Shown: positions 3,794 to 51,284 of the stretch, in pieces | Position numbering within the stretch: the first letter of the stretch is position 1 | How the letters are laid out: the number at the start of each line of letters is the position of its first letter | DNA from: Coptis chinensis | Lineage: Eukaryota > Streptophyta > Magnoliopsida > Ranunculales > Ranunculaceae | DNA: 64,000 nucleotides | Direction of reading: 5' to 3' | Assembly (NCBI GenBank): GCA_015680905.1 | Contig: CM027385.1 | Span: 18,854,501-18,918,500, forward strand | The notes under the pieces: generated by a model | Told to the model about the DNA's origin: nothing | The model's input: only the letters and a program-made list of their open reading frames with translations | Database searches by the model: none | Translations under genes and position numbers: made by a program

Positions 3794-3795
3794 TT

Positions 3796-9959: not shown

Positions 9960-10290
9960 CACTACAACAAATATGACATATGACATCACTAATTTTAGAT
10001 CACTTTCAGCGAAGTGATGTCATATGAAAACTATGACATCACTTTTCTCAGCATGTGATGTAATAATTATTACAATCTTTTTTTAACATCACTTATTTGG
10101 AAGGCTGATGTAGTAGAGTTGTACAACATCATTTTAATAAGTGATGTTGTGATAGTGATATAGTAACACCTTTTTACGTCACTCACCATGTCACTTATAA
10201 AGTAATGTAATATCTATGTATTCAACATCACTTTAAGAGTGACTTTGCCAAGTTTTCGGAATCACTTGTGATGTGATTTCCAGAAGTGTT
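9960..10290. repeat. CACTA left terminus and subterminal repeats
   Basis: Terminal CACTACAACA is followed by about ten copies, in both orientations, of GACATCAC/GTGATGT words (for example ATGACATCACTTTT and AAGTGATGT). Confidence 0.8.
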
Positions 10291-10299
10291 ATTATTGAT

Positions 10300-10900
10300 A
10301 TACCTATTAATTATTAAGTTAATTAGTTATAAAAAATCATCTAAAAAAAATTAGGTTAAATAGAAATGAAACAGGCGCGTGATTGGTTTGCTAGACTAGC
10401 CGCTCTTAAATGAGAAATAAAAAATAAAAGACTGCAATTTTTTCTACTGAATATATTTTGGTTTCCCTAGTTAGAATCTAAAGACCATCGAAAAATTAGT
10501 TTAAATAGAAATTAACCAGCCATTTGCTCTACTAGCCTTAAACGAAAATTAGAAATAAAAACCGCGAATTTGATGTTTTAATGGTGAGGCTCATGATCTA
10601 GCTAAATGGGCTTATAACTTGTCTGACATGAGTACTCTACCAAAATGTTGCACAGACTTTCAGTGTATCCCTTTAATTTTATAATATATATATGTGTATG
10701 TGTTGTAGTGAAAAAAAAACATTTAGGAATTTTTTCTTGGAATTTCTGAAATTTCAAGAAATGTTAACCGAAAAATCCTAAATTCTGGTATTTGACGAAA
10801 TTGTTGTTGTACTAGTTCAAGTTCAACAAAGGAGGAAAAACCCTTCTAAAGCCCTAAACCACTACTCTTCACTCTCGCTTCCAAACCCAACCCTGTTTGT
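10300..10900. other. CACTA internal non-coding sequence
   Basis: AT-rich, with no clear gene. About 10580-10680 encodes GEAHDLAKWAYNLSDMSTLP on the plus strand, which loosely resembles the C-terminus of LINE-type RNase H. TGTTGTAGTG at 10701-10710 looks like an internal CACTA terminus, but its flanking triplet does not match. Confidence 0.4.
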
Positions 10901-10913
10901 TTTGCAAATCACC

Positions 10914-11210
10914 ATGACTGTTTACCGTCTCCAATCCCTACTTCGAAGATCATCACCTCTCTCCAAACCCACACAAAATACCACCCTAGCCTCCATCACT
11001 GCCACTTTTACGCATTCATTTGCATACTCTTCCGCGGAAGAAGCCGCCAATAGAGTCGTAAAACCCTCCACCACGCTCTTAGCGACCCCATCTGCCCCAA
11101 GCCCATGCCCAGATCCAAATGCCCCTCGTTTACCCGATCCACTTCTTTACTCACTGGTCCTCGTCTTAGTCTTCACAATAGAGTCCAGTCTTTAATACGT
11201 GCTGGTGACA
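10914..11210 (+). pseudogene. Captured PPR gene fragment 1 (N-terminus)
   Basis: ATG at 10914 opens TVYRLQSLLRRSSPLSKPTQ, then an S/T/A/R-rich stretch typical of a mitochondrial targeting peptide. After a frame change the text reads STSLLTGPRLSLHNRVQSLI, RAGDML, and homology ends at about 11210. It looks like the 5' exon of a mitochondrial pentatricopeptide-repeat protein, probably the same gene as the fragment at 11822-12307. The plant protein GRP23 is a possible relative, from memory only. The upstream sequence may be captured 5'UTR. The frame is broken, so no complete targeting domain is encoded. Confidence 0.7.
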
Positions 11211-11485
11211 TGCTGTGAATTCCCTTTTGCCTACTATTTGTTACCACTAGATAACTTGAGAAGTTGAGAGAAGATCAAATGAAGAGAAGATATTACTACA
11301 AGACAAGTATGAAACTCTTTCGATGTAATCTTTATTCTTAGTAGTATGGTATTTTGGGTAAAATGTTTTTCTAGTAGTATATGTGATTGGTACTTTTACA
11401 AGGTGATACATAAGAGGCGCAGAATCTGAGAGTAAGAAACAACACCGACTTTATAAGATACAAAACTATAATGGTGCTTCTCATT

Positions 11486-11793
11486 TCACAAGAACTTGCT
11501 ATTTATACCATTTCTATACAACCGTAGGTCGATATACAAGCTATGGTTATCACGGGTGTCGTGGGGAACAAAGATAACACTGCCCTTTTTAATTCTTCGT
11601 TCTTTGGATGATTCCATTTGCATTGTCCCTTGTCCGGATGTTACAATGAAAATGGAAGGTCCTGAAATTGCAGGAAATCTTGTTGTTGCGTTGAGGTAGA
11701 ACACAACAAATCGACCTCAAACTCGTCAAAAGGTGGTGAGTATCTTTTTGTGTATGGATCCAATGGAATTCCTTGCAGAATCTCTGGAAACCC
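11486..11793 (-). pseudogene. Captured mannose-6-phosphate isomerase last exon (antisense)
   Basis: Mannose-6-phosphate isomerase (type I, cupin fold) interconverts mannose-6-phosphate and fructose-6-phosphate for GDP-mannose and ascorbate synthesis in the cytosol. After an AG acceptor (TTTGCAG) the minus strand encodes GFPEILQGIPLDPYTKRYSP and PFDEFEVDLL. After a one-base frame change near 11700 it encodes FPAISGPSIFIVTSGQGTMQ, KKGSVIFVPHDT, RLYRNGINSKFL and a TGA stop at 11486-11488. This is the C-terminal end of the plant enzyme. Only this exon is present, inverted relative to the PPR pieces on both sides. 11215-11485 may be its 3'UTR. Confidence 0.72.
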
Positions 11794-11821
11794 CTGCAAA
11801 ATATGTGCTAGACATGCTGTT

Positions 11822-12307
11822 TTTTCCAACAATCGCCCTACTGTATTCACTTGTAATGCTATCATGGCTTCAATGTATCGCGCTACTTGGTATAAAGAGG
11901 TAATTAGTCTATTTCAATTTTTCTTTAATCAGTCCAATATAGTTCCTAATATTGTTTCTTATAATGTTCTAATTAATACCCATTGTGATGCTGGTCGAGT
12001 CGATGTTGTTCTCGATGTCTATGCTCATATTCTTGCTAATGCCCCCTTTGGTCCTCCGTCTGCTACTTATCGCCATTTGACAAAAGGGCTTGTTGAGGCA
12101 GATAGGATTTCTGATGCTATGAACCTTTTTAGAGAAATGCTCAATAAGGGTCATGGAACTGACTCCCTTGTTTATAATAATCTCATTTCTGGGTTCCTTG
12201 AGTTGGGTAATTTGGAGAGAGCGAATGAGCTCTTTGACGAGCTTCGTGAACGCTGTCTTGATGGAACGGTTAATGCGACTTATATGGAGTGGTTCTTTAA
12301 GAAAGGA
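11822..12307 (+). pseudogene. Captured PPR gene fragment 2 (repeat region)
   Basis: An open frame of about 160 codons encodes successive pentatricopeptide repeats of about 35 residues: PTVFTCNAIMASMYRATWYK, NIVSYNVLINTHCDAGRVDV, SATYRHLTKGLVEADRISDA, DSLVYNNLISGFLELGNLER. These helical-hairpin repeats bind organellar RNA. The frame runs unbroken from 11750 to 12352, but bases before about 11822 are antisense isomerase and bases after about 12307 are DXS in another frame. The match ends at MEWFFKKGM. It joins DXS directly, with no intron or spacer. Confidence 0.82.
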
Positions 12308-12308
12308 A

Positions 12309-12489
12309 TGAGGCAACGAGCAATGCTGAATACTTGGATTTCAATATGGTAGTGATCTTAAATGACAGCCGACACTCTTTACACCCAAAGCTAGAAGAGG
12401 GCTCCAAGATAACAATCAGTGCTTTATCTACTACTCTTAGCAAGCTCCAATCCAGTAAATCCTTTTGAAAGTTTAGAGAGGCTGCTAAG
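12309..12489 (+). pseudogene. DXS: Captured DXS exon A
   Basis: DXS condenses pyruvate and glyceraldehyde-3-phosphate to 1-deoxy-D-xylulose 5-phosphate, the first step of the plastid MEP isoprenoid pathway, using thiamine diphosphate. This exon encodes NAEYLDFNMVVILNDSRHSL, then ALSTTLSKLQSSKSF, a TGA where CGA would give arginine, and KFREAAK, ending at a GT donor (12490). It is fused on its left to PPR fragment 2. The N-terminal thiamine-diphosphate domain upstream of this point is absent. Confidence 0.8.
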
Positions 12490-12587
12490 GTACTCTTCTC
12501 AGTTTTCCTTAGAGCATATTGGAGTGGTTTTTCATCACGAATTTACTAGATTGGAGCTGGTTCAATCTCATGCCATTTCTGTTGTGC

Positions 12588-12791
12588 AAGAGGGACAAAG
12601 AACTTGTGGTTGTTCATGCGGGCATGGAAATGGATCCATCACTTCAATTATTTCATGCAAGCTTCCCAGATAGGTTTTTGATGTGGGGATGGTTGAGCAA
12701 CATGCAATGACTTTTGTTGCTGGTTTGTCTTGTGGGGGACTGAAGCCGTTCTGTGTTGTTCCATCCACATTTCTACAGAGCTTATGATCGG
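12588..12791 (+). pseudogene. DXS: Captured DXS exon B (start of pyrimidine-binding domain)
   Basis: Encodes KELVVVHAGMEMDPSLQLFH and ASFPDRF. A single T missing from a T-run shifts the frame, then come [20 protein letters not shown] and [13 protein letters not shown]. The glutamate of the VEQHA motif is the one that activates thiamine diphosphate in this family. The exon ends near GATCGGGT, where two bases are missing compared with the expected QRAYD codons. An intron starts here, and element B lies inside it. Confidence 0.8.
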
Positions 12792-13214
12792 GTTATCCTT
12801 CTTATTATTCTAAACTTGAGCATGTGTTTGATTAATTAGAGACTTCGATGACATCTGCAATGTTATATCTATGCTAAACTACTGGTTCTACTTAATCTAC
12901 TTGGAACAACAGGAATATTTTCGAGCTTGTAGGCAAGAAAATATAACTTTGCCTTCTCTATGAAATTTTTTTCTCATTAAATACTTATGGTGAGGGATAA
13001 AGAAGTCATGATTAGGGATAAAGTAACTTCTGTCGTGAAATAAATCAAATATTCTAAAAGTAATAATGTGATATTTCTATGCCAACAAAAAACAGCCAAA
13101 TTCCACTTTCCTTTTTATATGCAAGTAGAATATGTACCATACTGATCGAACAATTCCATGCACAAATATTGGATAGTTTCACATATTGGATCCACTACAT
13201 CAATATCATGATGC
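12792..13214 (+). other. Left part of captured DXS intron
   Basis: Non-coding AT-rich sequence from the DXS donor to the target site of element B. With 28200-28377 it makes an intron of about 600 bp once B is removed. Confidence 0.6.
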
Positions 13215-13219
13215 CTCAT

Positions 13220-14692
13220 TGATAAAAGTTAAAATGAATAGTCTACCTACGAAATGAACGATGAAACTCAAAACGTAAGTAAACTAAAACTATCTTAAGA
13301 TGCTTATATTTATCAAAGTTTCCTACTCTCAAGTCTATCGAAATAGAGTGGAGTAACGAATTCGTTCCACTCCTAGTGCTCTAGCATGTAATTGTTTTCT
13401 AATCTAATTAGTCGGTCTTAAGTCAATGAGAGCTTTACGAAGGTGATATACTACGATACTTACTGAATTTGATTAGTTGAATTTAACTACGAATTCTATG
13501 GAAATATGATTGTGCTTGAATCTAGATAAAGGATTAGAGGGGAATTGAATCCACCTTGAATCCAACTTAATAGCCTAACATAGATTCTTGTATCTCGATT
13601 CTTACGTTCTTCGGCAAGAAAAATTTGAGTTCTAATCCCTAGTGTTCATGGCATTTCTACCGAGTACTAACTAGCATGTGAGGTCGTCCACCCATTCTCA
13701 TGGCGAATCACGACCTTCTAGATTGGAATAGATTCTACAATGTTTCTACACTATACCACTAAGTTTTCATCAAGGCTTCATCAACCCCTCTAATGGAGGT
13801 TTTAGCCTTGAGTCATCAAACCATCATTTCCCATTTCATTATAACTACCCATCATATTAAAATTCTAACTTAACTAAATTAACTAACAATGGTTTAATCT
13901 ATTTAAACTACGGAATGATAATCAACAAGAATTAAAATCAGATCTATAAATTGAAATAACACAATTCAAAATTGCGAAAACAACTATTTTATTTATCTAA
14001 TCAATCAAGAACAATGATTCAAAGACTTAATCTAAAACAAGAATTTAAAATGGAACTAAAGCTTAATTTAATTAATGAAAACAGATCTAGAATTATCTAT
14101 ATTATTTTAGGTCTAACTAGCTACCATTAACAAAGAGCTAAACTTTGGTTTTTATACTTTCAGATCCAAAAATCGTGCATGGGCTTGGAGCCATGTTTTG
14201 GGCCAGAGAATCAGGCCCAAAACCCAATTCTTTCAGTCTAAAAAGGCCTCTTCAGCTGCAGTTGGTTTCCACAGACTTTTCGTCCACTTCTGCTCCTCTG
14301 ATTGGGTCAAGGCTTAGACCATTGGAAAGCTCTTTCTGAGCCGGTCCTTTTGACATAAGGTAGGCCCAATTCCGAGGTTTGAGTCTAAAGATACGGCTTT
14401 CGGAAGTTCTGCTGACTTGTGTGTTGTTTCACCCCGTCGACTTTTTCAGCTTTTGACCGGTCTTTAGGAAGGCTTTATCTTCTTGAATCTTGGCCTTTAA
14501 TCACGGAACTCCTTAGTAACCGACCTTTTCTCCTTTATCTCACTAAAGTGGCACATTTATGTACATAATGGACTTTGAAGCCTGAAATGCATAAAAACAC
14601 GTAATCAGTGTTAACTCTTAATTATTACTCACATAATTGGTCCAAAAGTATGACTGTTAAAGGGTTAAAACTACAGTTTTGGGCTCTTATCA
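13220..14692 (-). repeat. 3' LTR of gypsy B
   Basis: 1473 bp, TGATAAAAG to CTCTTATCA on the plus strand. It differs from the partner LTR by scattered substitutions and small indels. The promoter block is at about 14160-14405. Confidence 0.92.
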
Positions 14693-14706
14693 AACCACCC
14701 CCAAAC
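14693..14706 (-). other. Polypurine tract of gypsy B
   Basis: On the minus strand TTTGGGGGTGGTT, directly before the 3' LTR. This is the plus-strand primer site for reverse transcription. The same tract is at 51272-51283 in element C. Confidence 0.85.
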
Positions 14707-16500
14707 AGCATTTTGCTTGTCCTCAAGCAAAGATGAGAAATTAGAATAAGTGACCAAAAATGGAGTTCTATCTACTCTCGTTTCGCTGAGTGTGATTGCA
14801 TTGACCATATGCAACAAGACCTTAAACCACTATGAATTCCCTAGTGGACGAGTTATAGCCTCGTGAGAGTTTTCCAGTGAAGGTACTCACAAACTTCAAC
14901 TATACTACAACGACTAAGAAATAAAACTATTGTTTTTCTCATTCATGTCCCAACTATCTATACATCTCACTAGCAATTGAATAAGAATAACCAAGTCAAA
15001 AACCTAAACTAATATATGCATAATAATCAATCATCTATGATACAAATATATATACTATGAGTAATACTATGAAATGCCTAGCAGGTTAAGTTTCTGAAAA
15101 CTTCGAATAAGCGTCCTTAAGTAGGTCCTCACATAAATGTCAAGACAAAACCACTCTGATTTTTCCACTCAAGTTTATTTTGCTCCGCAGTGCAAGGGCA
15201 CACTTTACCTTACAATCTCAATGACAACAAGGAAGCCGGGTCGATCAAACACATCTGCCACTTACTATCACACTAACCTATTCCTAATTGAGCTAGAGGT
15301 CTTTATTAGGTGTTGCGGGGATTAGGAGATGGTTTAAGAAGGAAGGAAATGGATATTCAAAAGGACAAGTCTGAGATAATAAAGTCTTCATATTATGTAA
15401 CTTAGAGAAAACCTTGTTATTTTCTTTTGCTTCTATACTTTGTTTCCATCCTTAGCCATATTTTTCTTTTTCTTTGGCTTTTGACTCCCTTTTATTGGAG
15501 TTTTTATTTATTTCTATATTATTTTTTTTCTTTTCCTTGGATGGAAACTTCTTTTCTTTTTCTGAAGCAACTAACTAATTTTTGTTTACACAGGTTTTTC
15601 TCTTCTTCTTTCTTCACTCATTCTATTCTCAGACTTATTCTAAATTGGGTAGGTTGATTTATTTTTTTTTTTTTTTGTTTTTGTTTTTGTAACAGGGTAA
15701 AGGAATTGTGGTTTATGGAAGGCTAAAGAAAGGCTCGAGGGGCTTACTAGCGGAAAATAATTCATAGGTTTGAATTTCTGGCTATATCGATCCAAAAAGG
15801 GCCTAAATTCTTACTTAGGATATGGCATAGTGATCAAGCAAGTGGACGTGTGATATCTCTATCCGGATTTTACTTCTCCCTTGTGTCATTTCTCAAATGT
15901 TTCGCTCATATAAGGCTTTAGGCTATATTCTCACAGGATTTGTAGAATAAGTACTCTAGCCTAGATTTCAAAAACTTACTGCTAACAATCATAGATACTC
16001 ATGTAATATATTTATAGATAGACGCAAAGATTATTACCTATATATTAACCTAAGTTTCTAACAATTATTCTGATGCAAAAGCTACGTGAGACTTCTAGAT
16101 TGTTAAGAGCATGGAGAAAGAAAACAATACCAATATTCCTAAGTTTATAGCATAACTTGTTTATTTATATTTTTGAATTTTTTTTTTAAATTTTTAACTA
16201 GAAATAAAATGCATATTATACATATTTATATCCTAATAGATGCCTCAATTATACGTGTTTCTATGCCCCCCCAACAAGAATCATGCTTTATCCTCAAAGT
16301 ATTGTAAATAAAGAGGGTAGGAAAAATACCATTGAAACGTGTGAAATTCAGGAACATCTACAAAACAAAGTTAGAACGTACTACTATAGGAAATAAACTG
16401 ACGCAACTCTATACGAGTTCCACCCATTATGGGGTTAACAAAATGAAATTGCTTGGGACATAAGCGGACACTAAAAACTAAAACTTACCTTATCTCCCCG
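14707..16500 (-). other. Long 3' untranslated region of gypsy B
   Basis: About 1.8 kb without a conserved reading frame, including a T-rich tract at 15660-15690. It is collinear and well conserved with 49480-51270 in element C, so it is a family feature, not random insertion. Confidence 0.7.
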
Positions 16501-17418
16501 CTTAAGCATCCTCCTCCTCATTAAAGATATGAGGTTCCTTCAAGATCCCGCCAAATCCATTATAACTTGCCAAGCTTGCCGCCATTTATCATCTACTAAT
16601 GCTAACCTGTTAAGTGTTATTATGTCTGATGGGATGTACGGGGCGACCAAATGAGGCTGCACCTGCCATCCCAACCAAGTCATTATTCGCAATGAGTGAA
16701 CCACCCTATTGGTGGGTCTCATGACTTCAACCCTTTTCCAATCTGTGAATTGTGCACAGAATACAGGTAAACAACTACGCATGATGCGGCTTACCAACAC
16801 AGGCATAAGAAGATACTTACGCCTCATGGTTTGGGCTCTCTTAAGACTAGTGACCAAAACTCGGGGAATGTCATAATGGCGACGTCCCTCAGCTAAAGCG
16901 AGGAAAATGTCACCAGCAGTACTGTTTGCAGAAATGAACTGCCATTCCCCCAAAATATTCATCAGGATGAATAACATAGTGGTGCCTACGTTTAAGGAAA
17001 GGCTACCAAGGGCAATGCTATATCACCCCTGGTCCATTACTCGAAATACCCCTCCCCCATAATAATCATGGAAATATGTATAATCATAAAGATATGCATT
17101 ATCAGTCATATATGCCCATGTGTGAACAGGATCAGGTATTGGTATTCCTAAAACTAAGGCGACCAAATTTTTATTGAATTCATGTGTCGTGTCATCGACT
17201 ACAACGAAGAATTCTTGATCTCCATCCTTATTACAATAGAATTTAACATGGTCATAGAAATAAGCAGTAAGTTGTGGTGAATATGACTCGTCATCACTTA
17301 CCAGTAGATGACGCCATCCTAACTGCAGGATCCTGTGTTGGAACCAGTGTCCATAGGTCTCGGTGCCCAACACATCTTTGAAAGACTGTTCAGGTATGAC
17401 TATAGGAGATGTCATCAC
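16500..17418 (-). pseudogene. Additional ORF y of gypsy B (env-like position)
   Basis: A nearly intact frame of about 293 codons downstream of integrase, in sense orientation. It starts MMTSPIVIPEQSFKDVLGTE at 17418 and includes GTETYGHWFQHRILQLGWRH, DDTTHEFNKNLVALVLGIPI, DYYGGGVFRVMDQG and RRHYDIPRVLVTSLKRAQ. One TGA at 17023-17025 (CGA in element C) is its only in-frame stop. A frameshift near 16545 removes the acidic end (LFDEEEDA in C). I see no signal peptide or clear membrane span. It has the position of the env-like ORF of Athila elements, but its function is unknown. C carries a homologue at 48574-49474. Confidence 0.65.
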
Positions 17419-17489
17419 AATAACTCTTTGAACAGTTCCACAAAAATCCTGGAATGACCGTCTGAAAATTGGAAATTTCCGTTCACGAA

Positions 17490-17720
17490 AACTGAAAAGG
17501 CGTAGGGCGCTGGTCGCTCGTGTAGGGCGGTCGTCTTGTGTAAATGCGATTATAGTGTTATGTTATGGCTGTCACGCTTTGGTATGAGGGGGGTGGTCGC
17601 TTTCCATGAGCGGGCTGGTCGGGTCTAGGTCGATAGGTCGGTCGAGAGATGAGGGCGGTCGCGCTCGATTATGAGGGCGGTCGCTTCTAACAAAATTCTT
17701 CAAAAAAAAGTAAAAGCAGC
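17490..17720. repeat. GC-rich GGTCGC/GGGCG repeat tract before ORF y
   Basis: Short imperfect repeats of GAGGGCGGTCGC and GGTCGCTCG lie just upstream of the ORF y start, in otherwise AT-rich DNA. A matching tract lies in the leader before gag (26385-26580) and in C at 48390-48500. Confidence 0.6.
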
Positions 17721-18315
17721 GCTCCGACACAAAGCGCGCGCCGTAACCGAAACCGGAGTTTAGATGAAAAAGAAAGTAAAACTTGGAGTGGATGGTGCGG
17801 GATGATGGTGGAATGTATTGTGGTTTGTTAGTGTAGAAAGAAGGAGTTTAAATAGGTTATGAGCTTCCAAAATGAATCGGGAAGTTCCCTATTTGTTTGA
17901 AGGCAATTTCCGGAAATAGGAAAATTCCCAAAACCGAAAACGGAAACAAGCCATTTTCATGATTTCCTAAAAATCCTGGTATCTTTCATACTGGATTTAG
18001 AATAGTAACTTCTAAACTTTCCTAGATTTCATGCCACCACCACACAAGTCATAGATATGCCGATATCGCCAAATTATCAACCTTTCCTCCAAGACAACGT
18101 AACATATATATGATCATATAACCGACTTATGCTCGGTCTAAATATTTCCACCCCCAACCAAGTCGGAAGGTGGGATAAATGATAAAACAAGCAAGACTTT
18201 CGAAAATAACCCATTATATTAAAAATAAAATAAAATATAAATCCAAACAACATTAAATAAACACATTACTATTTAAATTTAACTCTTGAATTAAAATCCT
18301 TCTAATAAAACGAAA
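17721..18315 (-). other. Spacer between ORF x and ORF y of gypsy B
   Basis: AT-rich, no reading frame. It is collinear with 47800-48390 in element C. Confidence 0.5.
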
Positions 18316-19500
18316 TTATGAAATAACAAATAACTCCAACCGGGGTGAACACCTAGTTTTGTGATGATGATGGACCCGAGATGGAGATTGGCTTGAACCC
18401 TCTGTCCTTTGGCGACGACGCTCATGCCTGTCGGACTCGGCTGAAACAGAGTCCTCTACGGGTGGCATGCGTCGTAGCATCTCTATTCGGAACAAGCGTT
18501 GGGCTTCCATCTCAGCATCGAAAATACGCATAATCGGGTTTGTTGTTCTGGTGGATAGTCTCTATGTTATACAAGATATCGTCCCGTAACCCCTTCGAGC
18601 ATTTCAAATCTCCTCGAAGGTTCCCTTGCTTCTTTTGAACTACTATCCGCCTATTTCGATATCACCACAAATACCATAAACGCACCGCAAAGGCGGTTTG
18701 CAACACTTGCATCGTTCTACATTAGAATTACACTTCTCTAATGTATCTTCATCCATCCATGTCATATCTTCCCTTTCATCCTCCGACTCATCCATTTTTT
18801 CTTCGCATAATGGCCAAAAGTCTCTTGGATGCAATCCAGATAGATACTTGCATTAGAATGCAATTTGATCTTAATAGGAGCAGATCTTGTGACAAATCTA
18901 AAGGAGAGCATGATCTTAGTGATCAATACGGAAGAGGCGCTAAACTCTTCCCCACTCCTCGAATCACATTAAACATTAAATCAAGGATGCAGAAATTATA
19001 CTTCTTTGTTTGCAAAATCCAGAGAACGTCGCGCACATTGCGGGCCGATATCATCGACTTTGTCTTTCCCGAGGGGCGTTCCTACCAATCCACGGAGCTA
19101 CACCCGGTTGATTGGTTCTCGGGGTGGTCGGGCAGACGAATGGGATGTCGGATTGTATTCACCCTCCACGACAGTATCCTTCATCAAAGCAGAACTCCAA
19201 GATATCGGGGGTTCTTGAATTGTCGTTACTAGGTTGCTTTCAAAGCGTAATTCCTAATAGTTCAAATAACAACCGTCCGCTAAGCACTTCTCTCCGTTCC
19301 TCCTAACTTTATGAAAAATCCTATCCCCTTCCAATTCTCGCTTTTTATAAAACTGTTCTACCAAATCATAGTGATAGAACTCCTCAGTTGAGTACCACAG
19401 TCCGTTCCAATGTCTCTTGAACATCTCCGCGTCATAAAATGGCGCCGAAATCGGAAGCAAAACGCTTTTTCCGCAAAATTCTACGTCGTAAGCGCCATTG
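18316..19500 (-). pseudogene. Additional ORF x of gypsy B
   Basis: A broken minus-strand coding region between integrase and ORF y. Pieces include HWNGLWYSTEEFYHYDLVEQ and FYKKRELEGDRIF at about 19460-19254, the acidic stretch DESEDEREDMTWMDEDTLEK near 18790, and a charged, arginine- and serine-rich tail near 18450 with HERRRQR and QSPSRVHHHHK. Element C has the same order at 46552-47760. The second copy shows that this was a real ORF. I do not recognise a domain. Several frameshifts and stops make it non-functional here. Confidence 0.55.
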
Positions 19501-20650
19501 AAATTTCTTAGACTACTAACGGTTTGTAGACGTGGGGAGGCGAAGTTTGAAGAAAACTACTAAAACGGCGTTGGTGGCGTTGGTGGTGGTGGTGGAAACT
19601 GTAATTGGTGGGTGTTTTTCGAAGTTGGGTTGGTGGTGATGATTGTTTAGAGAAGATTTAAGGTGGATTTGATTTCCTTGTTGTAGGTGTAGTTAGGTTT
19701 TCTTCCCTCTCTCTATATTTATTTATTTATTATTTTTTTTATTATTTTGGTTTCCAAAACTTGTAACCGGCGGTTTGGGATTGAAGTGGAAACACTATGC
19801 GTGTGGGTTGGGAAGGAAGGAGACGCACAACGTGAGTGCGGTTTGGGCCCAAGCCCAGTTTGAATTTCGAAATTTTCCAATTTTTCGCGCAATTTCAAAC
19901 TCAATTTGCCGCTTTGTTACTGGCCCGATTTTGGCGAATGAGTTATGGAAATGATCAGTAGAGAATTTCCAATCCAATGATCCATAAAACACTCAATTCC
20001 AACCATGGGTGACGTATAAGAGGGTGGAAGAACGCCTCGAAGTGCGTGTGTGACGTAAGTTATCGCGACGAAGGAAATCTAAGTTTAGATTACGTCAACC
20101 CAATTGAACTAATGGGCCTAAACAAAACCAATGGAAAGTTCGAGCAATCCCGATGGAAAGATCGACTGCCCACCCCAAAACAAATTTTTAAACACAAAAT
20201 TTGTTTACAACGGGTCGCTTTTAAAGTCGATTCCCAAGACTTGTTGGATTGCTATTTCTATGATTTAAAGAATTTTAATTTTATTTTTATATGTTTATTA
20301 TAAGAAACACGAAAAACAATAAATACATAATTCACTCCACGAGGAACATGACTCAAAACCGAAAACATGCAAAAGTGGAAAACGTGAATTATGTAAACCG
20401 TGGACTTAGGATCCGGTACTTACAGCCACACACTCCATAGGGAGGGCCCGGTTACCTGAATGGTGTACTTATCGGATATGGAAATGAAAGTAAGTACACC
20501 AAATGACAAGGGTCATCCTCATCATAGTGGTCCTGTAAAAGGACTTCCTCTACATCGTGGGGGACGTAAGTTCGTGAAAATGTTTTAACCGTTGACCATT
20601 AACTTGGAAGGTACTGTTGTCATTTGGATTTACCAAGGTGATTGCCCCGT
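19501..20650 (-). other. Spacer between integrase and ORF x of gypsy B
   Basis: No convincing reading frame. It matches the layout at 45560-46550 in element C. Confidence 0.5.
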
Positions 20651-20659
20651 AAGGGGTGA

Positions 20660-21640
20660 CTTCATAACTAGAAAAGGGCCGACCAACGGGTTTTAGTTTG
20701 CCCTAGGAAAAACATGTAGACGGAGTTGTAAAGCAAAACCTTTTGACCGACCACAAACTCTTTGCGCAAGATATGCTTATCATGAACACGCTTCATGTTA
20801 GCTTTATAATCCTTCATGAGATCGCATTTAATCGCTACGGATTTCTTCAAGCTCATTCAATTGCAACTTGCGTTTGACACCTGCCTCATCAATATTGAAG
20901 TTAAGGCTTTTATAGCCCACGAGCACGGTGCTCTAATTCAACGGGCAAATGACATGGTTTCCCAAATACAAGTCTAAAGGGGAGACATACCTATAGGAGT
21001 TTTGAAAGCAGTTCTATACCATAAGGCATCCGATAGACGCTTTGACCAGTCTTTCCTATCAGGGTTTACAGTTGTTTCTAAAATCTTTTTGATTTCCCTA
21101 TTAGAAACTTCTACATGTCCGCTAGTTTGTGGATGATAAGGAGTTGCTACTTTGTGTGTAACTCCATACTTTTTCACTAGAGATGCAACAACTCTGTTGC
21201 AAAAAATGTGTTCCACCATCACTAATGATGGCTTTAGGAATGCCAAACCGATTTAAAAATATATTCTTTAATAAAAAATACAACGGTCTTATGGTCATTG
21301 CTACGGCAAGCTAGGGCCTCTATCCATTTAGACACGTAGTCCACGGCAAACTAGAATATAAATGAAACCGTGGGAAACCGGAAAGGACCCATGAAATCAA
21401 TGCCCCAAACGTCCGAAAATTTCTACGATCAAGATTGGATTTAATGGCATCATATTACGTTTAAATGATTAAGCCCAAGTTGTTGGCAACGAATACACGC
21501 CTTGCAATGCACTTGGGCATCCTTAAAAAGGGTAGGCCAATAAAATCCACATTGAAGAACTTTAGCGGCTGTTTTCATCCCACTAAAATGGCCACCACAC
21601 TTTTGTCATGGCAGAACGATAGAACTTCATTGTATTCCCA
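20660..21640 (-). pseudogene. gypsy B integrase, frameshifted
   Basis: Integrase inserts the cDNA into the genome. Minus-strand pieces, in protein order, are a zinc-finger region near 21600-21480 (HCKACI, CQQLGL in shifted frames), a core with SKWIEALACRSNDHKTVVFF near 21330, and [20 protein letters not shown] (21246-20974). The C-terminal module (20856-20668) has HDKHILRKEFVVGQKVLLYN and then a frameshift in the GPF region. There is no chromodomain. The protein is split by at least four frameshifts or stops. Confidence 0.75.
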
Positions 21641-22029
21641 CCGGGAATACAACGACGAATAATCTGATCCGCACAATACTTAAAAAGGTAGGGCTCATCC
21701 CAAAGTAGTATAACTTCGCCAAAAACTTCTTACGCTCATTTCTTGACCAATTATAAGGCATAACATCAGCCGCTAGATAATTTACAATGTCAAAGATACC
21801 ATGGTGCTGAAAAATGGCATACGATGCTCATCGGGAAAAGAGTCCGGTATGGACTCGAAATCACCGATCGTCGTTTGTGAGTCTAGATAAGTGGTCGGCA
21901 ACTACGTTTTCGACCCTCTTTTTTGTCCTTTATTTATAATGTGAACTCTTGCGGAGAAGGATCCATCGGATTAATCTCGCTAGCATCCTTCTCTGCAAGA
22001 AGGTACTTTTAAGGGTCTGCATGGTCCGT

Positions 22030-22260
22030 GTAAACTAAAGTTTTAGAACCAACCAAATAAGGATCTAAACTTATCTAAAGCATAAATGACGGCTAAGAAT
22101 TCTTTTTCTGTAGTTGAATAATTTCGTTGAGCATCGTTTAATGTTTTACTAGCATAATAAATGACAGTGGACTTATTATCTAGTTTTTGTCCCAAAGATC
22201 GCACCAACCGCATAATCACTAGCATCACACATGAGTTCGAAAGGTTTAGACCAATCGGAG
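22030..22260 (-). pseudogene. gypsy B RNase H region
   Basis: The minus frame encodes VIYYASKTLNDAQRNYSTTE and KEFLAVIYALDKFR, the hallmark RNase H connection motif of Ty3/gypsy polymerases (YASKTLN...NYSTTEKE). RNase H degrades the RNA strand during reverse transcription. It follows the reverse transcriptase in frame-disrupted form. Confidence 0.8.
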
Positions 22261-22299
22261 GTCAGTATAATTGGTGCAGAGGTTAGGGCGGCTTTTAAA

Positions 22300-23040
22300 G
22301 TTTCAAAAGCCTTCTTACAGGTTAAAATTAAAATCAAAGATTGCATCTTTCAAAAGCAGATTAGTTAAAGGCCTAGCTATTTTCGAAAGTCTTTAATAAA
22401 TCGCCTATAAAACCTGCATGGCCCTAGAAAGGCTCTAATATCACGGACAGTCCGTGATTTAGGTAAAGTCGCTATCTTATCTAGTTTGGCCTTATCCACT
22501 TCGATGCCATCACTAGATACAATGTGACCTAGTACTATGCCCTTTTTCACCATGAAATGACACTTTTCCCCTCTTTAAAAAGCGAGGCTCTTTTCTTCAC
22601 ACCTTGTCAAAACCTTAGACAGGTTAGACAAACAGTCTGTGAAGGAGTCTCCATAGATAGAAAAATCATCCATGAAAAATTCCATAAAGCACTCTACCAT
22701 GTCACTAAATATATGAAGCATACACCACCGAAGGTTCCAGAGCATTACAAAGGCCAAAAGGCATTCGCTTATAGGCATACGCTCCAAAGGGACATGTGAA
22801 GGTAGTCTTTTCTTGGTCATCAAGATCAATAATAATCTGAAAATAGCCCGAGTAGCCATCCGTAAAACAATAAAAGCATGACCAGCTAGGCGCTCGAGCA
22901 TTTGATCTATAAAAGGTAAAGGAAAGTGATCCTTTCGTGTCATAGCATTTAAACGTCTGTAATCAATACAGATCCTCCATTTCATAGGACCTTGTGTGAC
23001 AACATAGTCACCCTTTCCGCTTCTTAACCATGGTAACTCC
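22300..23040 (-). pseudogene. gypsy B reverse transcriptase, frameshifted
   Basis: Contains WRICIDYRRLNAMTRKDHFP and LPFIDQMLERLAGH near 22980-22880, and the catalytic FMDDFSIYG near 22680-22650. Between them the frame is lost and regained: the palm motif with the first catalytic aspartate reads in other frames (KRMPFGLCNAP-like near 22750). Frameshifts follow toward RNase H. Domain order protease-RT-RNase H-integrase is that of Ty3/gypsy. Confidence 0.82.
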
Positions 23041-23397
23041 CGATTTCTTAGGAACTACATGAATGGGGCTTACCCATTCGCTATCGAGATGGGGTATATG
23101 ATACCGCGATCGAAAGTAATCGTAAAGACTTCTTCCCTCACCACCTCTTTCATGGCGGGGTTCGCTTGACGAGGTTCGCGAGAAGTCTTCGCGTTATCCT
23201 CCAAATGGATACGATGAGTGCAAACATTAGGGTCAATTCCTTAATGTCAGCTAGGGACCAACCAATCACGAGACCGATGTTCCCTAATCACCCGGATTAA
23301 ACGCGTGTCTCTTCATCAATAGATAACAGAAGATATAATTACCGGATGACTACCATCCGGATCGAGTTGAATATATTTTAACTCTGGGGGAAGGGGT

Positions 23398-24345
23398 TTA
23401 AGACCGGGTGGGAGGAAAATCAATAGATGTTTCGTCGGGGTCCTCATTTTGCATAATGAATACTTGCTTAGGTAGCAAGTCTTCATACTCAATATGTGGA
23501 GCAACCAAAGTGTCTACAATTGGTGTGGACTCAAGGATGGTGTTGACTTCCTCTAAGTAGGAGTCATTTACAAAATCTGACTTTCCAAAAGAAAGGAATT
23601 TGTACATATTGTTTTCAGGAAACGTGTTGTTAAAATAATCTTGAGCTAAGCTCTCGATCATGCTAACCTCCCCATCTATAGATGAATCTGATAACTGTTT
23701 CATCATTTTAAAAACATTTACCTCAACTGTGAGATGGCCAAAAGATAAGGACATCTTACCATCGCGGCAATTAATAAGTGCGTTGGCAGTTGCTAAAAAG
23801 GGGCGCCCTAAGATGATCGGTACAGAGTCATTAGCAACTTCTGTATCGAGGATAACAAAATCCGCAGGATAGTAGAAATCCTGAACCTTAACAAGCACGT
23901 TTTCCACTACACCCTTAGGATACTTAATAGACCTGTTCGCTAATTGCAACGTTATTTTTGTAGGTTGCATTTCCTGTAGACCTATTTGTTTATACAAGTA
24001 ATACGGGAGTAAGTTAACACTCGCCCCCAGGTCTAATAAACTGGTCGTCATGTGGGAATCTCCTAAGGTGCATTTTACAGTAGGACGACCGGGGTCCTTG
24101 TACTTACCAATTCCATTATTTTCGGATAAAGTTGGGAATTGTTCAGTTAAAAAGGCGTCTTTCGGTATGTTGGCCTTACGCCTAGTAGTGCACAACTCTT
24201 TAAGAAACTTAGCGTGATTAGGTAGCTTTTTAATAGCTTCGAGAAAAGGAAGGTTTATCGTTAGATTTTTGAAAACATTCCTAATCTCCTCGAAGTTGGT
24301 ATCCCTGGTTAGCATGGCTAATTTTTGAGGGAATGGTGGTTTCAC
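23398..24345 (-). pseudogene. gypsy B gag C-terminal conserved block and aspartic protease
   Basis: An open 315-codon frame. The first part (LTRDTNFEEIRNVFKNLTIN, KELCTTRRKANIPKDAFLTE) is the conserved Athila/Tat-type block before the protease. The catalytic motif LLDLGASVNLLP lies near 24040-24010, followed by LQLANRSIKYPKGVVENVLV, the flap-like region, and ILGRPFLATANALINCRDG. The aspartate is present; the usual DTG reads DLG, as in many plant elements of this group. The acidic tail runs to 23398. It is the only uninterrupted pol domain in B. Confidence 0.85.
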
Positions 24346-24349
24346 TCTA

Positions 24350-26161
24350 TATTTAGCGTATGGCTCGACTTGATGTGTAACCTTGGCTTTCTGTTTCTTA
24401 GGTTGTGGTTTAACCGGTACCTCTACAAAGGTAGGTTCTTCGGTTTCTATTTCAAAGATCTAGTTCGATATCCGGTGTAGGGAGGATCACGGGGTAACTA
24501 TAGGCATAGTTACTTTGTTATCAACCACTTTTCCGAGGCGAGAGTGGTGATGGCATTTAGGTCACCTACTATTGTCGCTTCGTACTAGTATTACCGTTTA
24601 CCTCAAAGGTCGTGTTTGTTGTTTTAGGGTTTGGTATCGCTTTGTCCCGAAACACGCCTTTTGGTTGGGCTTTCTCTTGGGCTAACCGTTGTATGCCCCG
24701 ATTTATGGATTGTAATATCTGTTGGTTTGATTGAGTCATTGATTGGAAAAGTTGTTGGGTAACCTCGTATAAAAGGCGCGTTGATACGGTCCGTTTGTGT
24801 AGGTGTAGTAGTCACGGTGGTGCGACCGAACTATCTCACGCTGATTATTTATGGGTGGGTTTTGATAGTTACTATTGTTAACCTAACGATACCTCTATTG
24901 GTATTATAATTATTATAATTATTCTGACCTTGTGCTACACCTTGTCGGGTTTACGCTTTGGTTGTTATAATTATTATAATTTCCGACCTTGTCCTTGTCC
25001 TTGCCTAGGTGGAGCTTGATTATAGTTGTTTGTTTGCCTAACATTTTGGTTATTAAACCCTGGAGTTGTAACTTGTTGATTGTTTCACCAACTAAAGTTG
25101 GGATGTTGTCTCCATGGGGCATTAGGAATAGGATAGTTATTAATGGAGCAAATATTATCTTCCTCTAATTGTTGTTGTTCATAGGCGAGAGGACAATAGG
25201 AGTCAGGGTGCTCAGGACTCAAACAGAAATTACATGGGTTGGAGTTGACATTCATGAAGGGAATAGGATTTTGTTGAATAGAAATAGCCTCTACTTTTTT
25301 AGTTAGAGATTCGATTAAATTTTTAAGTTCTGGGTCGGGTTTCATCTCAAACATACCGGGCGCCTTAACTCGCTGAAGAAGAACTAGTAGAGCGGGGGAT
25401 ATCATCACTCCCCAATTGTTATTAGCGTTTAGTTTGTTCTTCTAAAATTTATAAGCCTCCTCGAGGCCTTTTTACTTAGGAAACCCATTCATTATGTTAA
25501 GGACTTCTTTATGGTGATGTTGAAGTCCTTTGCAAAAGGCACGAACTAACGTGTCTTTTCCTAGGTTATGGTGTGGACACTCTATTAGCAGATCGGTGAA
25601 ACGATTCCAAGCCTCAGAAAATGATTCATGAGGGTTCTGTCGGAAGAAATGAATCTTGGAAAGCATTTCATCCATCTTTAGGGGTGGGTAAAAATGTTCC
25701 ATAAATAGCTGAACAAGTTTAGCCCACGAGTCCACAGAGTTAGGCGCTTGGGCAGTTAACCAAGACGCTACCTTATCGGCTAAGGTGAAGGGAAATACCC
25801 TCAGTTTAATTTGTTCCGCACTAACCGTAGGATGATGGAATGTTGTAAGGACTTGTTCAATCCGACGCATGTGTTGGTAAGGTTTTTCATGGCCTAAACC
25901 ATGAAAAACGGGTAACAAATTAAATATGTTTGGGGGGATTCAAAAATCCCCCACTGGGTCTGCTAGAATGATGCAAGATTTAGGGCTATCGCTCAAAGCT
26001 TTGTAGAAGTCGGAGAGAGGAGTCTCTCTTTCTTCACCCATTATGTCAGGTATGGTTGGTGGAATAGTAGTTAGAGGTGTTATGATTGGTATACTCGATA
26101 TGTTTGTTTGTTGACGGTTAATTACGTTCGGTGTTTTTCTCCGACCAGACCTTAATCTCAT
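24350..26161 (-). pseudogene. gypsy B gag
   Basis: The start at 26161 encodes MRLRSGRRKTPNVINRQQ. One in-frame TGA at about 25938-25940 separates this from the capsid-type core (25918-25472) with LRVFPFTLADKVASWLTAQA, the signature of the plant retrotransposon gag domain, and FFRQNPHESFSEAWNRFTDL. Further on are a CX2CX4HX4C knuckle (CNFCLSPEHPDSYC, near 25220) and an N/Q-rich repeat region with frameshifts. Gag forms the virus-like particle that holds the RNA. Confidence 0.82.
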
Positions 26162-26384
26162 GCAAGTCTAAGTCTAAATACGAAAACAACCCAAACAATC
26201 TTGATATATTAGTATGAACCTCTAACTGGAGATGCGAGGTATGGAAGAAAGGAATACCTGAAAGCGTCCTTGCTTCGCTTATGAATAGCGTCTTGTTTAC
26301 GCGTGTTCAGTGTAAATAACAAGTTAGAACACTAAAAACTTACAAAATTGAAGTTCGAAACAAACCTGTAGAAATCCGCAAAAT

Positions 26385-26580
26385 TTTGCTTAGGGCGCAG
26401 GTGCGCTCGGAGAGGGCGCGGTCGCGCTCCTAGTCCAGCACGTGAGCGTGGGTCGCGCTTGGTAAGAGGGCGGGTCGCGCTCGAAGTCTAGTAAGTGAGG
26501 GGTCGGTCTCGGGAAGAAAGTCGCTACTCAAAGTCCGAACTATAGAGCGCAGCGCTCCTTATAAGCCGGCGATGGCGGCC
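26385..26580. repeat. GC-rich GGGCGC/GGTCGCGCTC tract in gypsy B leader
   Basis: Imperfect repeats of GGGCGCGGTCGCGCTC and GTGGGTCGCGCTTGG lie between PBS and gag. They stand out from the AT-rich leader and resemble the tract at 17490-17720. Confidence 0.6.
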
Positions 26581-26703
26581 CGTGTAATTTTTCCCCGAAT
26601 TTTTTCAACGAAAACGAATAACCAAAACATGGGTGGGTGGGTTTAATGGGACTTAAAAATGACTAATTCTACTATGAAAACAATGCTAAAGTGCAACTAA
26701 GAT

Positions 26704-26716
26704 GGCAGCGGCGCCA
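26704..26716 (-). other. Primer binding site of gypsy B
   Basis: TGGCGCCGCTGCC on the minus strand, two bases from the 5' LTR. It is the tRNA-Asp type. Confidence 0.85.
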
Positions 26717-26718
26717 TT

Positions 26719-28194
26719 TGATAAAAGTTAAAATGAATAGTCTACCTACGAAATGAACGATGAAACTCAAAATGTAAGTAAACTAAAACTATCTTAAGAT
26801 GCTTATATTTATCAAAGTTTCCTACTCTCAAGTCTATCGAAATAGAGTGGAGTAACGAATTCGTTCCACTCCTAGTGCTCTAGCATGTAATTTTTTTCTA
26901 ATCTAATTAGTCGGTCTTAAGTCAATGAGAGCTTTACTGGTGATATACTACGATATACTTACTGAATTTGATTACTTGAATTTAACTACTAATGCTATGG
27001 AAATATGATTGTGCTTGAATCTAGATAAAGGATTAGAGGGAATTGAATCCACCTCGAATCCAACTTAATAGCCTAACATAGATTCTTGTATCTCGATTCT
27101 TACGCGTTCTTACGGCAAGAAATTTGAGTTCTAATCCCTAGTGTTCATGGCATTTCTACCGAAGTACTAACTAGCATGTGAGGTCGCCCACCCATTCTCA
27201 TGGCTTAATCACGACCTTCTAGATTGGAATAGATTCTACAATGTTTCTACACTATACCACTAAGTTTTCATCAAGGCTTCATCAACCCCTCTAATGGAGG
27301 TTTTAGCCTTGAGTCATCAAACCATCATTTCCCATTTCATTATAACTACCCATCATATTAAAATTCTAACTTAACTAAATTAACTAACAATGGTTTAATC
27401 TATTTAAACTACGGAATGATAATCAACAAGAATTAAAATCAGATCTATAAATTGAAATAACACAATTCGAAATTGCGAAAACAACTATTTTATTTATCTA
27501 ATCAATCAAGAACAATGATTCAAAGACTTAATCTAAAACAAGAATTTAAAATGGAACTAAAGCTTAATTTAATTAATAAAAACAGATCTAGAATTATCTA
27601 TATTATTTTAGGTCTAACTAGCTACCATTAACAAAGAGCTAAACTTTGGTTTTTATACATTCAGATCCAAAAATCGTGCATGGGCTTGGAGCCATGTTTT
27701 GGGCCAGAGAATCAGGCCCAAAACCCAATTCTTTTAGTCCAAAAAGGCCTCTTCAGCTGCAGTTGGTTTCCACCGACTTGTCGTCCACTTCTGCTTCTCT
27801 GATTGGGTCAAGGCTTAGACCATTGGAAAGCTCTTTCCGAGCCGGTCGTTTTGACATAAGGTAGGCCCAATTCTGAGGTCTGAGTCCAAAGATACGGCTT
27901 TCGGAAGTTCTGCTGACTTGTGTGCTGTTTCAGCCCGTGTCGACTTTTCAGCTTTTGACCGGTCTTTAGGAAGGCTTTATCTTCTTGAATCTTGGCCTTT
28001 AATCACGGAACTCCTTAGTAACCGACCTTTTCTCCTTTATCTCACTAAAGTGGCACATTTCTACACATAATGGACTTTGAAGCCTGAAATGCATAAAAAC
28101 ACGTAATTAGTGTTAACTTTTAATTATTACTCACATAATTGGTCCAAAAGTATGACTGTTAAAGGGTTAAAACTACAGTTTTGGGCTCTTATCA
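26719..28194 (-). repeat. 5' LTR of gypsy B
   Basis: 1476 bp, TGATAAAAG to CTCTTATCA on the plus strand. The minus-strand promoter has a TATA-like TATAAAAACC near 27645-27655, preceded by GGCCCAAAA and TGGGCC motifs at about 27690-27720. Confidence 0.92.
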
Positions 28195-28199
28195 CTCAT

Positions 28200-28377
28200 A
28201 TTCTAGTGCTTTAACATACTTGCTTTAATATCCCAAATGGATACACAAGTATTTCTTGCATAGAATATATATAAAATGCATGGTTACTTCTTGATTTCCT
28301 CCGTTCTATATTTTTAAAATCTTCTAGTTGGAAGTAACACTCTATCTCCCTCCCTCAATGTTTTGTTGTGGTCTTAG
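28200..28377 (+). other. Right part of captured DXS intron
   Basis: Ends in a pyrimidine-rich tract and AG (GGTCTTAG) directly before DXS exon C. It continues the intron interrupted by element B. Confidence 0.65.
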
Positions 28378-28656
28378 GTTGTCCATGACATGGAACAACA
28401 AAAGGTACCAGTGCGGTTTGCAATTTCAAGTGTTGGACTGGTTGGATCTGATGGTCCCATGCTTGGTGGGGCATTTGATATCACATTCATGTCATGCTTG
28501 CCAAACATGATTGTCATGGCTCCAGCGGATGAGGTTGAGCTTGTAAACATGGTGGTGACTGCTGCCCATGTAGATGATAGACCCATTTGCTTCCGCTATC
28601 CAAGAGGTGTCGTTGGTGGGATGAACAGCTTTTAATGCAATGGAATACCCCTGGAG
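28378..28656 (+). pseudogene. DXS: Captured DXS exon C
   Basis: Encodes [60 protein letters not shown] and [12 protein letters not shown], collinear with plant DXS after exon B. A TAA stop follows at about 28633, then GIPLE and a GT donor at 28657. The residues GSDGPMLGG replace the usual GxDGPTHxG, so a histidine conserved in active DXS enzymes is not present. This may be a feature of a divergent DXS clade or a mutation. Confidence 0.85.
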
Positions 28657-28791
28657 GTAATTACTGTACAATGTCTTTCATGTATGGACTTCCAGAACAC
28701 ACGCCCGCTTGTGTGGGCGTGTCGAAGCATGTGAACTTACAGCTGATATATCTTTGGCATAGCTCATGACACTGGTTCTATTGGTTGCCAG

Positions 28792-29076
28792 ATTGGAAAA
28801 GGCAGGGTTCTTGTAGAGGGTAAAGATGTTGCTCTGCTTGGGTACGGGGTGATGGTTCAAAATTGCCTTAGGGCTCGATCTCTTCTTGCCAACCTTGACA
28901 TTCATGTAACTATTGCAGATGCAAGATTTTGCAAGCCCCTTGATATCAAGCTTGTGAGGGAGCTATGCAAAGAACACACCTTCTTGATAACAGTAGAGGA
29001 AGGATCCGTGGGAGGATTTGTGTCCCACATTGTGCAGTTTATTGTACTTGATGGACAGCTTGATGGCAAAATCAAG
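28792..29076 (+). pseudogene. DXS: Captured DXS exon D (C-terminal domain)
   Basis: After an AG acceptor it encodes [60 protein letters not shown] and [13 protein letters not shown], ending at KIK|GT. This is the transketolase C-terminal domain of DXS, with no stop inside the exon. 29130-29210 may hold remnants of the last exon. The sequence resembles the non-photosynthetic, third-clade plant DXS, but I cannot confirm the clade here. Confidence 0.85.
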
Positions 29077-29210
29077 GTAATGGTTATCCCGCTTTGTATT
29101 CAAGGACTTGTATAAGATTTTAGATGCCGCCTTTGAGCATGTTGATAGGTAATGAAGAGGTGCTCTCTTACACTTCCCGGAAGCACCGTGCAAATTACAT
29201 GCTATTGGTG

Positions 29211-29817
29211 TTACTGCCCAAATCATTAACAACTATTTAAAAAAAAATTCTGGGCAGACACAAGTTTTAGATTACTCCGCTAGTGATGCAGAAAAATAGA
29301 CGACAACGTTTTTATTGTAAGTCAACCTCAACCAACTTTTGGCACAGGGTTGGACTGATCTTCAGAACTTCCTTTGTCATTCAGGTACTCTATTATGCGG
29401 ATGTTCCGTCTGTTTATTTTAGGGTTTAGGGTTTAGGGTTTATTTTCCTTTTATAAAATTTGCATTGATTTTCTAGTACAATGTTTCATACTGCAGAAAA
29501 AAGAAAACAGAGTGATTTGTTAGTCTGCGATAGGTTCTTGGATTAAATTGATTACATCAAGCCAGGCTGTGATAGGTTCTTGGTTGGGTGACTGTGGTTC
29601 TCTTTTGCTTATTTCGGTACTGCAAATTAGATTTTGTTGGTATATGTTGGCTCGTTACAATTTTTTGTATATAGTGTAATATTTGTAATTGGAGATGATA
29701 TTTGTGTGATGAATGTGATTTTAAGATACGTTTTATCTTTATTTGATGATAAATGACCTGGAAAATGGTATTATATTGGGATGATATTGACAATTTTTTT
29801 TATTATTATTTTGATAA
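29211..29817. other. CACTA internal non-coding sequence with three TTTAGGG units
   Basis: AT-rich. About 29418-29440 has three TTTAGGG units, the plant telomere repeat, but this is too short to call a telomere insertion. GATAGGTTCTTGG is repeated at about 29530 and 29570. No gene is seen. Confidence 0.5.
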
Positions 29818-30187
29818 ATGGGACATCACTTTTAAAGTGATTTATAGAGTTATTTCACATCACTTTACAAGTAATTTGGAATCTGAATGAAACGTCACTT
29901 CTTAAGTGATGTTAATCGGCCTTATTGATTTCATTTAAAAAGTGATGTTAAACGTTATAACATCACTTGTGGACATCGATTAAAAAGTGATGCAAAGTTA
30001 TAACATCACTTGTGGACATCAATTAAAAAGTGATGTAAAGTAACATCACTTGTGGACATCGTTTAAAAAGTGATGTGGAAAACCCTTACTTTTCACGTCG
30101 CCACCAGTTACATCACTTGCAAAAGTGACGTCGTATATTTTTGACATCACTTATGGAGTGATTTTAAATGTTTTTTATGTTGTAGTG
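29818..30187. repeat. CACTA right terminus and subterminal repeats
   Basis: A dense array of AAGTGATGT and ACATCACTT words, including three near-repeats of AACATCACTTGTGGACATC (about 29955-30065). It ends in TGTTGTAGTG. It mirrors the left array. Confidence 0.8.
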
Positions 30188-30190
30188 ATT

Positions 30191-33689: not shown

Positions 33690-34025
33690 GCAAATTCATT
33701 GAACTAACCTCAAACAATAATTAACGGGAAATCGGAAACTAAATGCAAATGCAACCTTATCGAATAATAAACGAGAAATCAAAAATTGGATGCAAATGCA
33801 TTAAAATAATCTCAAAGAATAATTAACGAAAAATCGGAAATTGGATACAAATGCATTGAACTAACCTCAAAGAACAATTAATAGGAAATTAAATACAAAT
33901 GCATTGAACTAACCTCAAAAAATAAATAACGGGAAATCAGAAACTAGATACAACTGCATTGAACTAACATCAAAAAATAAATAATGGAATTGAAAATCAG
34001 AAACTGGATGCAAATGCAATAAACT
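33690..34025. repeat. 55-bp minisatellite array 1
   Basis: Degenerate head-to-tail copies of a unit with AATAATTAACGGGAAATCGG, AAACTGGATGCAAATGCATT and GAACTAACCTCAAA. It is interrupted on the right by a LINE fragment. Confidence 0.8.
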
Positions 34026-34985: not shown

Positions 34986-35019
34986 TCTTTGAAAATCCCA
35001 CATAGTGGGTCATGTATAA

Positions 35020-39870: not shown

Positions 39871-39887
39871 ATTGTGTATTTTAAAAG

Positions 39888-51270: not shown

Positions 51271-51271
51271 G

Positions 51272-51283: not shown

Positions 51284-51284
51284 T

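Follow-up and report, generated by a model that had tools for sequence, protein, structure and literature searches.

Captured host genes in CACTA elements

Plant CACTA transposons that carry pieces of several host genes are already known (PMC1947982, PMC5105172, PMC8903248). The element considered here lies at positions 9960-30187 of a 64-kb stretch of Coptis chinensis DNA (contig CM027385.1 of a 936-Mb genome, with genes of plant type; hereafter the window) and joins fragments of genes for a pentatricopeptide repeat (PPR) protein, mannose-6-phosphate isomerase (PMI) and DXS. With good confidence, it can be regarded as a non-autonomous, multi-copy Pack-CACTA element, the cargo of which was assembled stepwise and spread later. 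Its value lies in the intermediates and joins; the literature search found no paper combining CACTA gene capture with pentatricopeptide or 1-deoxy-D-xylulose genes.

The Tpn1 family of Ipomoea nil consists of non-autonomous CACTA elements with 3-bp duplications and conserved terminal regions, the internal part of which has been replaced by captured host genes; a few of its relatives bear a transposase (PMC5105172). Compared by description, the window element is alike in being non-autonomous and in its 3-bp duplications, captured genes and transposase-bearing relatives, whereas capture order and junction scars, readable in its own family, were not met in the Tpn1 description available to us (PMC5105172). 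Tgm-Express1 from soybean, a 5.7-kb CACTA element, likewise contains fragments of unrelated host genes (five) with exons and introns kept; the account available concerns a single insertion, located in the F3H gene, and its transcripts, whereas the window family occupies nine loci and includes partial intermediates (PMC1947982). Pack-CACTA (Pack-TYPE) elements from Arabidopsis, maize and rice share CACTACAA ends, host coding DNA that frequently derives from more than one locus, and stepwise additions within a cluster; in that account capture is ascribed to tandem insertions, whereas the PMI join in the window has local filler and no relic of an arm (PMC8903248; for the tandem-insertion model see also PMC13317346). 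CACTA-like elements of Chenopodium also hold host gene pieces (Neprosin, AP2), described as short and lying next to the coding part of the element itself, while the window element lacks such a part and joins several genes (PMC8978399). Animal Pack-TIR elements, explained by gap-filling/FoSTeST, have short shared bases at the break points and would resemble it in template-switch repair, although application of the idea to plant Pack-MULEs is left there as worth exploring (PMC8277862).

Bounds and classification of the element

The 20,228-bp stretch begins with the terminal repeat CACTACAACA (9960..9969, plus strand) and ends with TGTTGTAGTG; the 10-bp termini begin with CACTA, are inverted, and are flanked on either side by the duplication ATT (9957..9959 and 30188..30190). 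The 5' arm (9960..10724, plus strand) is common, in pieces, to the transposase-bearing loci L047 and L048 from 9960 to about 10574. The 3' arm (29179..30187, plus strand) holds, besides the right terminus, 43-bp subterminal repeats, a similar motif being recognizable by eye in the 5' arm. All of these are features of the CACTA (CMC/EnSpm) superfamily. Pack-MULEs have long inverted ends and a 9-bp duplication, and Helitrons have TC...CTRR ends and no target duplication; for 9960-30187 the former are ruled out by the 10-bp ends and 3-bp duplication, the latter by the ATT duplication and CACTA ends.

The proposal of the initial annotation that the termini and ATT bound an insertion is borne out by empty sites. 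The genome was searched with a 550-bp query composed of the left flank (300 bp ending in ATT) and the right flank (250 bp). In 23 of the 40 rows listed, positions 1-550 align within 540-587 bp, without the 20-kb insert (81-92% identity in 21 rows, 70-71% in two); as they span the whole query, they represent copies of the surrounding repeat that lack the CACTA element. The window's own flank halves align at query positions 1-300 and 298-550, and the overlap is ATT. In a corresponding test at L027, ten rows, uninterrupted relatives of the long terminal repeat (LTR) surrounding that element, align across the joined site (the L026 row duplicates the window's 14173 row; a 1-base gap, about 10 bases off the site, occurs in one row). 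Ten elements were read at both ends (the window, L024, L025, L027, L028, L030, L031/L032, L033, L041 and L043), and nine of them show matching 3-bp duplications, with nine different triplets (ATT, GTC, TAT, AAT, AAA, TCA, TCT, TTT and TTA); for L030 and L032 the element end was placed one base away from the border set at first; the right terminus of L043 is decayed.

As many as 14,975 of the 20,228 bases belong to a later LTR retrotransposon (13220..28194, minus strand), separate from the CACTA element, which interrupts the DXS piece. Its LTRs (13220-14692 and 26719-28194) are direct repeats of the form TGATAA...TTATCA with a CTCAT duplication on both outer sides (13215-13219 and 28195-28199); of two minus-strand frames between them, one is like aspartyl protease (5.7e-05) and the other like reverse transcriptase (1.6e-05), at scores just or somewhat below Pfam's cut-off. 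A CACTA element of 20 kb was rejected, since 15 kb of the span is the nested retrotransposon; the element proper, less the retrotransposon and one CTCAT, therefore measures about 5.2 kb, similarly to L024 (499-5765 of that locus). The Kimura two-parameter (K2P) distance between the LTRs is 0.031 (29 transitions and 16 transversions over 1469 sites). The LTR rate in rice is 1.3e-8 per site and year, which would correspond to an age of about 1.2 million years, a value that is only indicative. Frames like those of the retrotransposon are visible by eye at 478-2193 and 48136-49282 of the window, and relatives of its LTRs occur at 51140-51804 and 4747-5276.

Cargo pieces and their parents

Between the arms lie, in order, PPR piece a (10725..11209, plus strand), the PMI piece in antisense (11216..11805, minus strand), PPR piece b (11806..12310, plus strand), and DXS in three parts (12308..12531, 12588..13219, and 28195..29178, all on the plus strand). 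PPR piece a covers about 120 bp upstream of the open frame of the PPR parent together with the N-terminal part. The PMI piece comprises 3' coding and adjoining non-coding sequence and replaces 20 bp of PPR, while the first DXS part meets PPR at the shared bases ATG.

The PPR piece matches Pfam PPR_2 (1.6e-20), and two DXS pieces match TIGR00204 (1e-26 and 3.9e-18), below the whole-protein cut-off because only pieces are present. The PMI piece taken alone has no Pfam match at 0.001; TIGR00218 reaches 0.0047, behind another cupin model at 0.00089, and in the PDB a hypothetical protein (0.0005) ranks before phosphomannose isomerase (0.039). It is named PMI because of its likeness to L036, with which it shares 92% identity across 588 bp and the frame of which matches TIGR00218 (8.8e-30, 104.1 bits, cut-off 116.2) and passes Pfam's cut-off for PMI_typeI_C.

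The parents lie on three different chromosomes. The PPR piece derives from L034 (C5:5.19 Mb, open frame of 940 codons; second relative L035), aligning over 995 of 1015 bp at 88%; the PMI piece from L036 (C8:4.89 Mb; second relative L037), over 588 of 588 bp at 92%; and the DXS pieces from L045 (C3:66.45 Mb), over 1832 of 3247 bp at 95%. L045 consists of five exon pieces, all five matching TIGR00204. It has upstream exons and reads cleanly in the pieces inspected, whereas L042, rejected as the DXS parent, lacks upstream exons in the 3.8 kb examined and has a stop inside an exon. No CACTA 5' or 3' arm was found at L034, L036 or L045 in the 5.5-9.9 kb examined per locus. As in other Pack-TYPE elements, there is no transposase of its own, and the host coding DNA has parents outside transposon ends. 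Judging from the truncated pieces and broken frames, a protein product from the cargo is not likely.

Retained introns, asserted by the initial annotation for the fragments, are present in DXS, where window positions 28195-29178 align with L045 without a break (95%) through the interval separating two exon frames; the non-coding part of the PMI piece could be either an intron or a 3' untranslated region. The identification of PPR, PMI and DXS fragments stands, the first and last through clear matches to PPR_2 and TIGR00204 and PMI through L036.

Copies across the genome

PPR, PMI and DXS occur together at nine loci: the window, L024, L025, L026, L027, L028, L029, L030 and L031/L032, the last being one copy with its two parts about 37 kb apart. 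Locus counts are minimum values, because scoring in the genome search was confined to the best candidates. At L026 (C9:18.999-19.020 Mb), 135 kb away, the window insertion is repeated with the same flanks, and this copy and the one in the window (C9:18.864-18.885 Mb) are about 97-100% alike, depending on the part. L026 is a recent segmental or assembly duplicate without a second transposition, so the nine loci represent eight separate insertions. The examined stretch of L026 ends within the nested retrotransposon, its DXS end being listed at C9:19.017 Mb, and at L029 the 3' arm is represented by only 139 of 937 bp. The copies diverge by K2P distances of 0.021-0.078. The patchwork has thus been transposed as one block to several loci (nine loci, eight sites), which is characteristic of Pack-CACTA elements.

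Gene capture at the DNA level by a CACTA element, as initially annotated, is supported by the parent genes, the empty sites, the further copies and the relatives with transposase. The search for parent genes proposed at that time led to L034, L036 and L045, and CACTA copies with cargo were found at further loci; among the places listed, the order PPR-PMI-DXS was not met outside CACTA ends. That first reading overlooked the nested LTR retrotransposon, the antisense position of PMI inside PPR, and the multi-copy state of the cargo.

Intermediates and order of captures

The locus L033 (C5:12.04 Mb) contains PPR and DXS without PMI. The parental PPR is uninterrupted there at the PMI position (1015 of 1015 bp at 92%), indicating that PMI is a later addition, which took the place of 20 bp. 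The element at L043 (C9:24.57 Mb), complete with both CACTA arms and TTA duplications, combines DXS with a piece of MACPF (Pfam 2.2e-06). Its DXS reaches 107 bp further upstream into the parental sequence than that in the window (reverse-strand position 1555 versus 1662 of L045), and the two share an internal DXS deletion of 1.3 kb and a 56-bp filler (96.5% over a 57-letter query). This common deletion with filler points to a single DXS capture, the PPR join being derived. Among other relatives, of which the inner stretch was read, L044 has an Hsp70 piece (2.8e-07) followed by DXS that ends at the same 3' border, and the DXS piece of L042 is shorter. The initial description of three unrelated host genes therefore holds for the window copy but is too narrow for the family, in which MACPF or Hsp70 pieces occur as well. 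L044 (87-352) and L042 (1853-2118) further have in common a 266-bp stretch with no match in the window element.

The source of MACPF is probably C4:107.42 Mb (three blocks at 92-95%). In L043, the piece sits upstream of DXS between two short repeat stretches, which stand 230-267 bp apart at ten other places and are interpreted as inner portions of a single 5' arm, because at C2:48.334 Mb the first stretch lies 0.5 kb inside a listed terminus. Two more MACPF places (C1:54.5 Mb and C8:47.2 Mb) do not appear in the list of 40 DXS matches. In view of this, and of the position between the repeat stretches, a linear series leading from MACPF to PPR was rejected; the two genes may have been captured separately.

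The build-up, stepwise as these intermediates attest, comprises a single capture of DXS from the L045 gene, with the internal deletion, one of PPR from the L034 gene, cutting into the DXS piece, and then one of PMI from the L036 gene, in antisense inside the PPR piece. Once complete, the patchwork spread to eight sites, and in the window copy the retrotransposon subsequently entered the DXS piece.

Transposase-bearing relatives

The sequence behind the 5' arm was fetched at three loci with transposase in mind. Two of them, L047 and L048, encode Transpos_assoc (4e-17 and 2.6e-18) and Transposase_21 (2e-26, 8.1e-32 and 3.4e-46) in several frames, a transposase of the TNP2 type that supports the assignment to the CACTA superfamily; L046 has other content. 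Transposase genes behind the same 5' arm suggest that the transposase of these relatives may move the non-autonomous element by cut and paste. L041 contains a 3.5-kb element (504-4000) with the same arms and TTT duplications. Its cargo, which looked synaptotagmin-like by eye, was not accepted as such, as four frames have no Pfam match at 0.01.

Junction scars and the mechanism of capture

At the PPR/PMI join, the bases GACATGCTGT (11207..11216, plus strand) end in six or seven that look like filler from PPR just downstream. In the PPR parent, the whole 10-mer follows directly after the lost 20 bp; the left PMI join thus contains a short copy of local sequence before PMI begins. This join reads GGTGACATGCTGTGAA in eight of the nine PMI loci, one of them with a substitution (the anchor was not found in L025); the exact pattern of the right join was found in five of nine, and the joins are alike save for point differences. 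A random combination of a 3-mer and a 7-mer yields such a local copy in 13 of 200000 simulated joins. The 56-bp filler in DXS (12532..12587, plus strand), which replaces 1.3 kb of parental sequence, contains an 18-nt inverted copy (17/18) of 12443-12460, bases located about 70-90 nt upstream; no source was found for its remainder. No arm relics were seen at the PMI/PPR and PPR/DXS joins. From the local filler and the short replaced stretches, we infer that breaks inside the element were repaired by copying other loci, and the later captures most likely would have occurred during such repair, by copying from elsewhere with template switches.

Several points weigh against this interpretation. 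The 7-mer alone arises by chance in 625 of 200000 simulated joins, the inverted 18-mer has a search E-value of 0.018 over the compared loci, and the filler argument depends on two junctions picked after being seen. The PPR-gene tree is poorly resolved (one of eight branches starred), so the capture order rests on junctions, and an order derived from the tree was rejected for want of supported branches; gene conversion with the parents keeps a residual likelihood. Transposase was found in two of the seven other 5'-arm loci (L038-L041 and L046-L048; L038-L040 judged by eye, and L041 with four frames lacking transposase by Pfam), and in both the sequence read covers the 5' arm and stops before the 3' arm. 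Finally, the triplets flanking L028 are unmatched (TGC/ATG).

Alternative explanations

In the tandem-insertion model, proposed for Arabidopsis Pack-CACTA and supported by clusters in maize and rice (PMC8903248), the intervening DNA is trapped when two CACTA copies lie close together and their inner ends are lost. It could account for the first DXS capture, the 3' border of which adjoins the CACTA arm. PMI, however, abuts PPR at either end, free of arm sequence and with a loss of just 20 bp, and no 3' arm lies between the two 5'-arm-like stretches around the L043 MACPF piece. As the general route, tandem insertion is unlikely, and the fillers look to fit templated break repair better.

An action of the cargo on its parents through antisense or small RNAs would be improbable: the PMI piece is in antisense to the other two, and identities of 88-97% to the parents could allow small-RNA pairing, yet the pieces are broken and drifting apart. 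Still less probable is an ordering of the cargo by loss, in which a PMI-bearing ancestor would have lost PMI to yield L033. This locus is single and its divergence is no more than moderately higher (K2P distances from the others of 0.063-0.078 in the left half and 0.049-0.076 in the right half), but it holds the parental 20 bp absent from the PMI elements, the precise regain of which would need conversion by the PPR gene. Least credible is a second small transposon (e.g., a Pack-MULE) as the PMI piece, with the 9-10 bp repeat GACATGCTG on both sides as its target duplication: MULEs generate 9-bp duplications, but a plain one is rejected by the 20 bp of PPR missing between the repeats, and no inverted repeats were seen by eye at the PMI ends.

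Other features of the window

The window also contains frames that by eye are like an endonuclease/reverse transcriptase of long interspersed nuclear element (LINE) type (39885-42793) and long frames of a copia-type polyprotein (53491-57508). Degenerate 55-bp tandem repeat arrays occupy 33762-36566, and a perfect tandem duplication (2 x 150 bp) lies at 7822-8121.

Implications for gene capture

The mechanism of gene capture by cut-and-paste transposons is still argued between tandem insertion in plants and gap-filling with template switches in animals. A pre-capture intermediate, a parent for each of the three main pieces, and readable joins, all in one genome, make these models distinguishable join by join. 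With an appreciable though not prevailing likelihood, the family may work as a cargo-assembly line, in which internal breaks are mended by copying genes in and the cargo is replaced or nested piecewise (a DXS core receiving PPR and then PMI here, MACPF or Hsp70 elsewhere), without tandem insertions. If so, intermediates within a single genome would show template-switch repair to be the route by which a plant CACTA family mainly captures genes.

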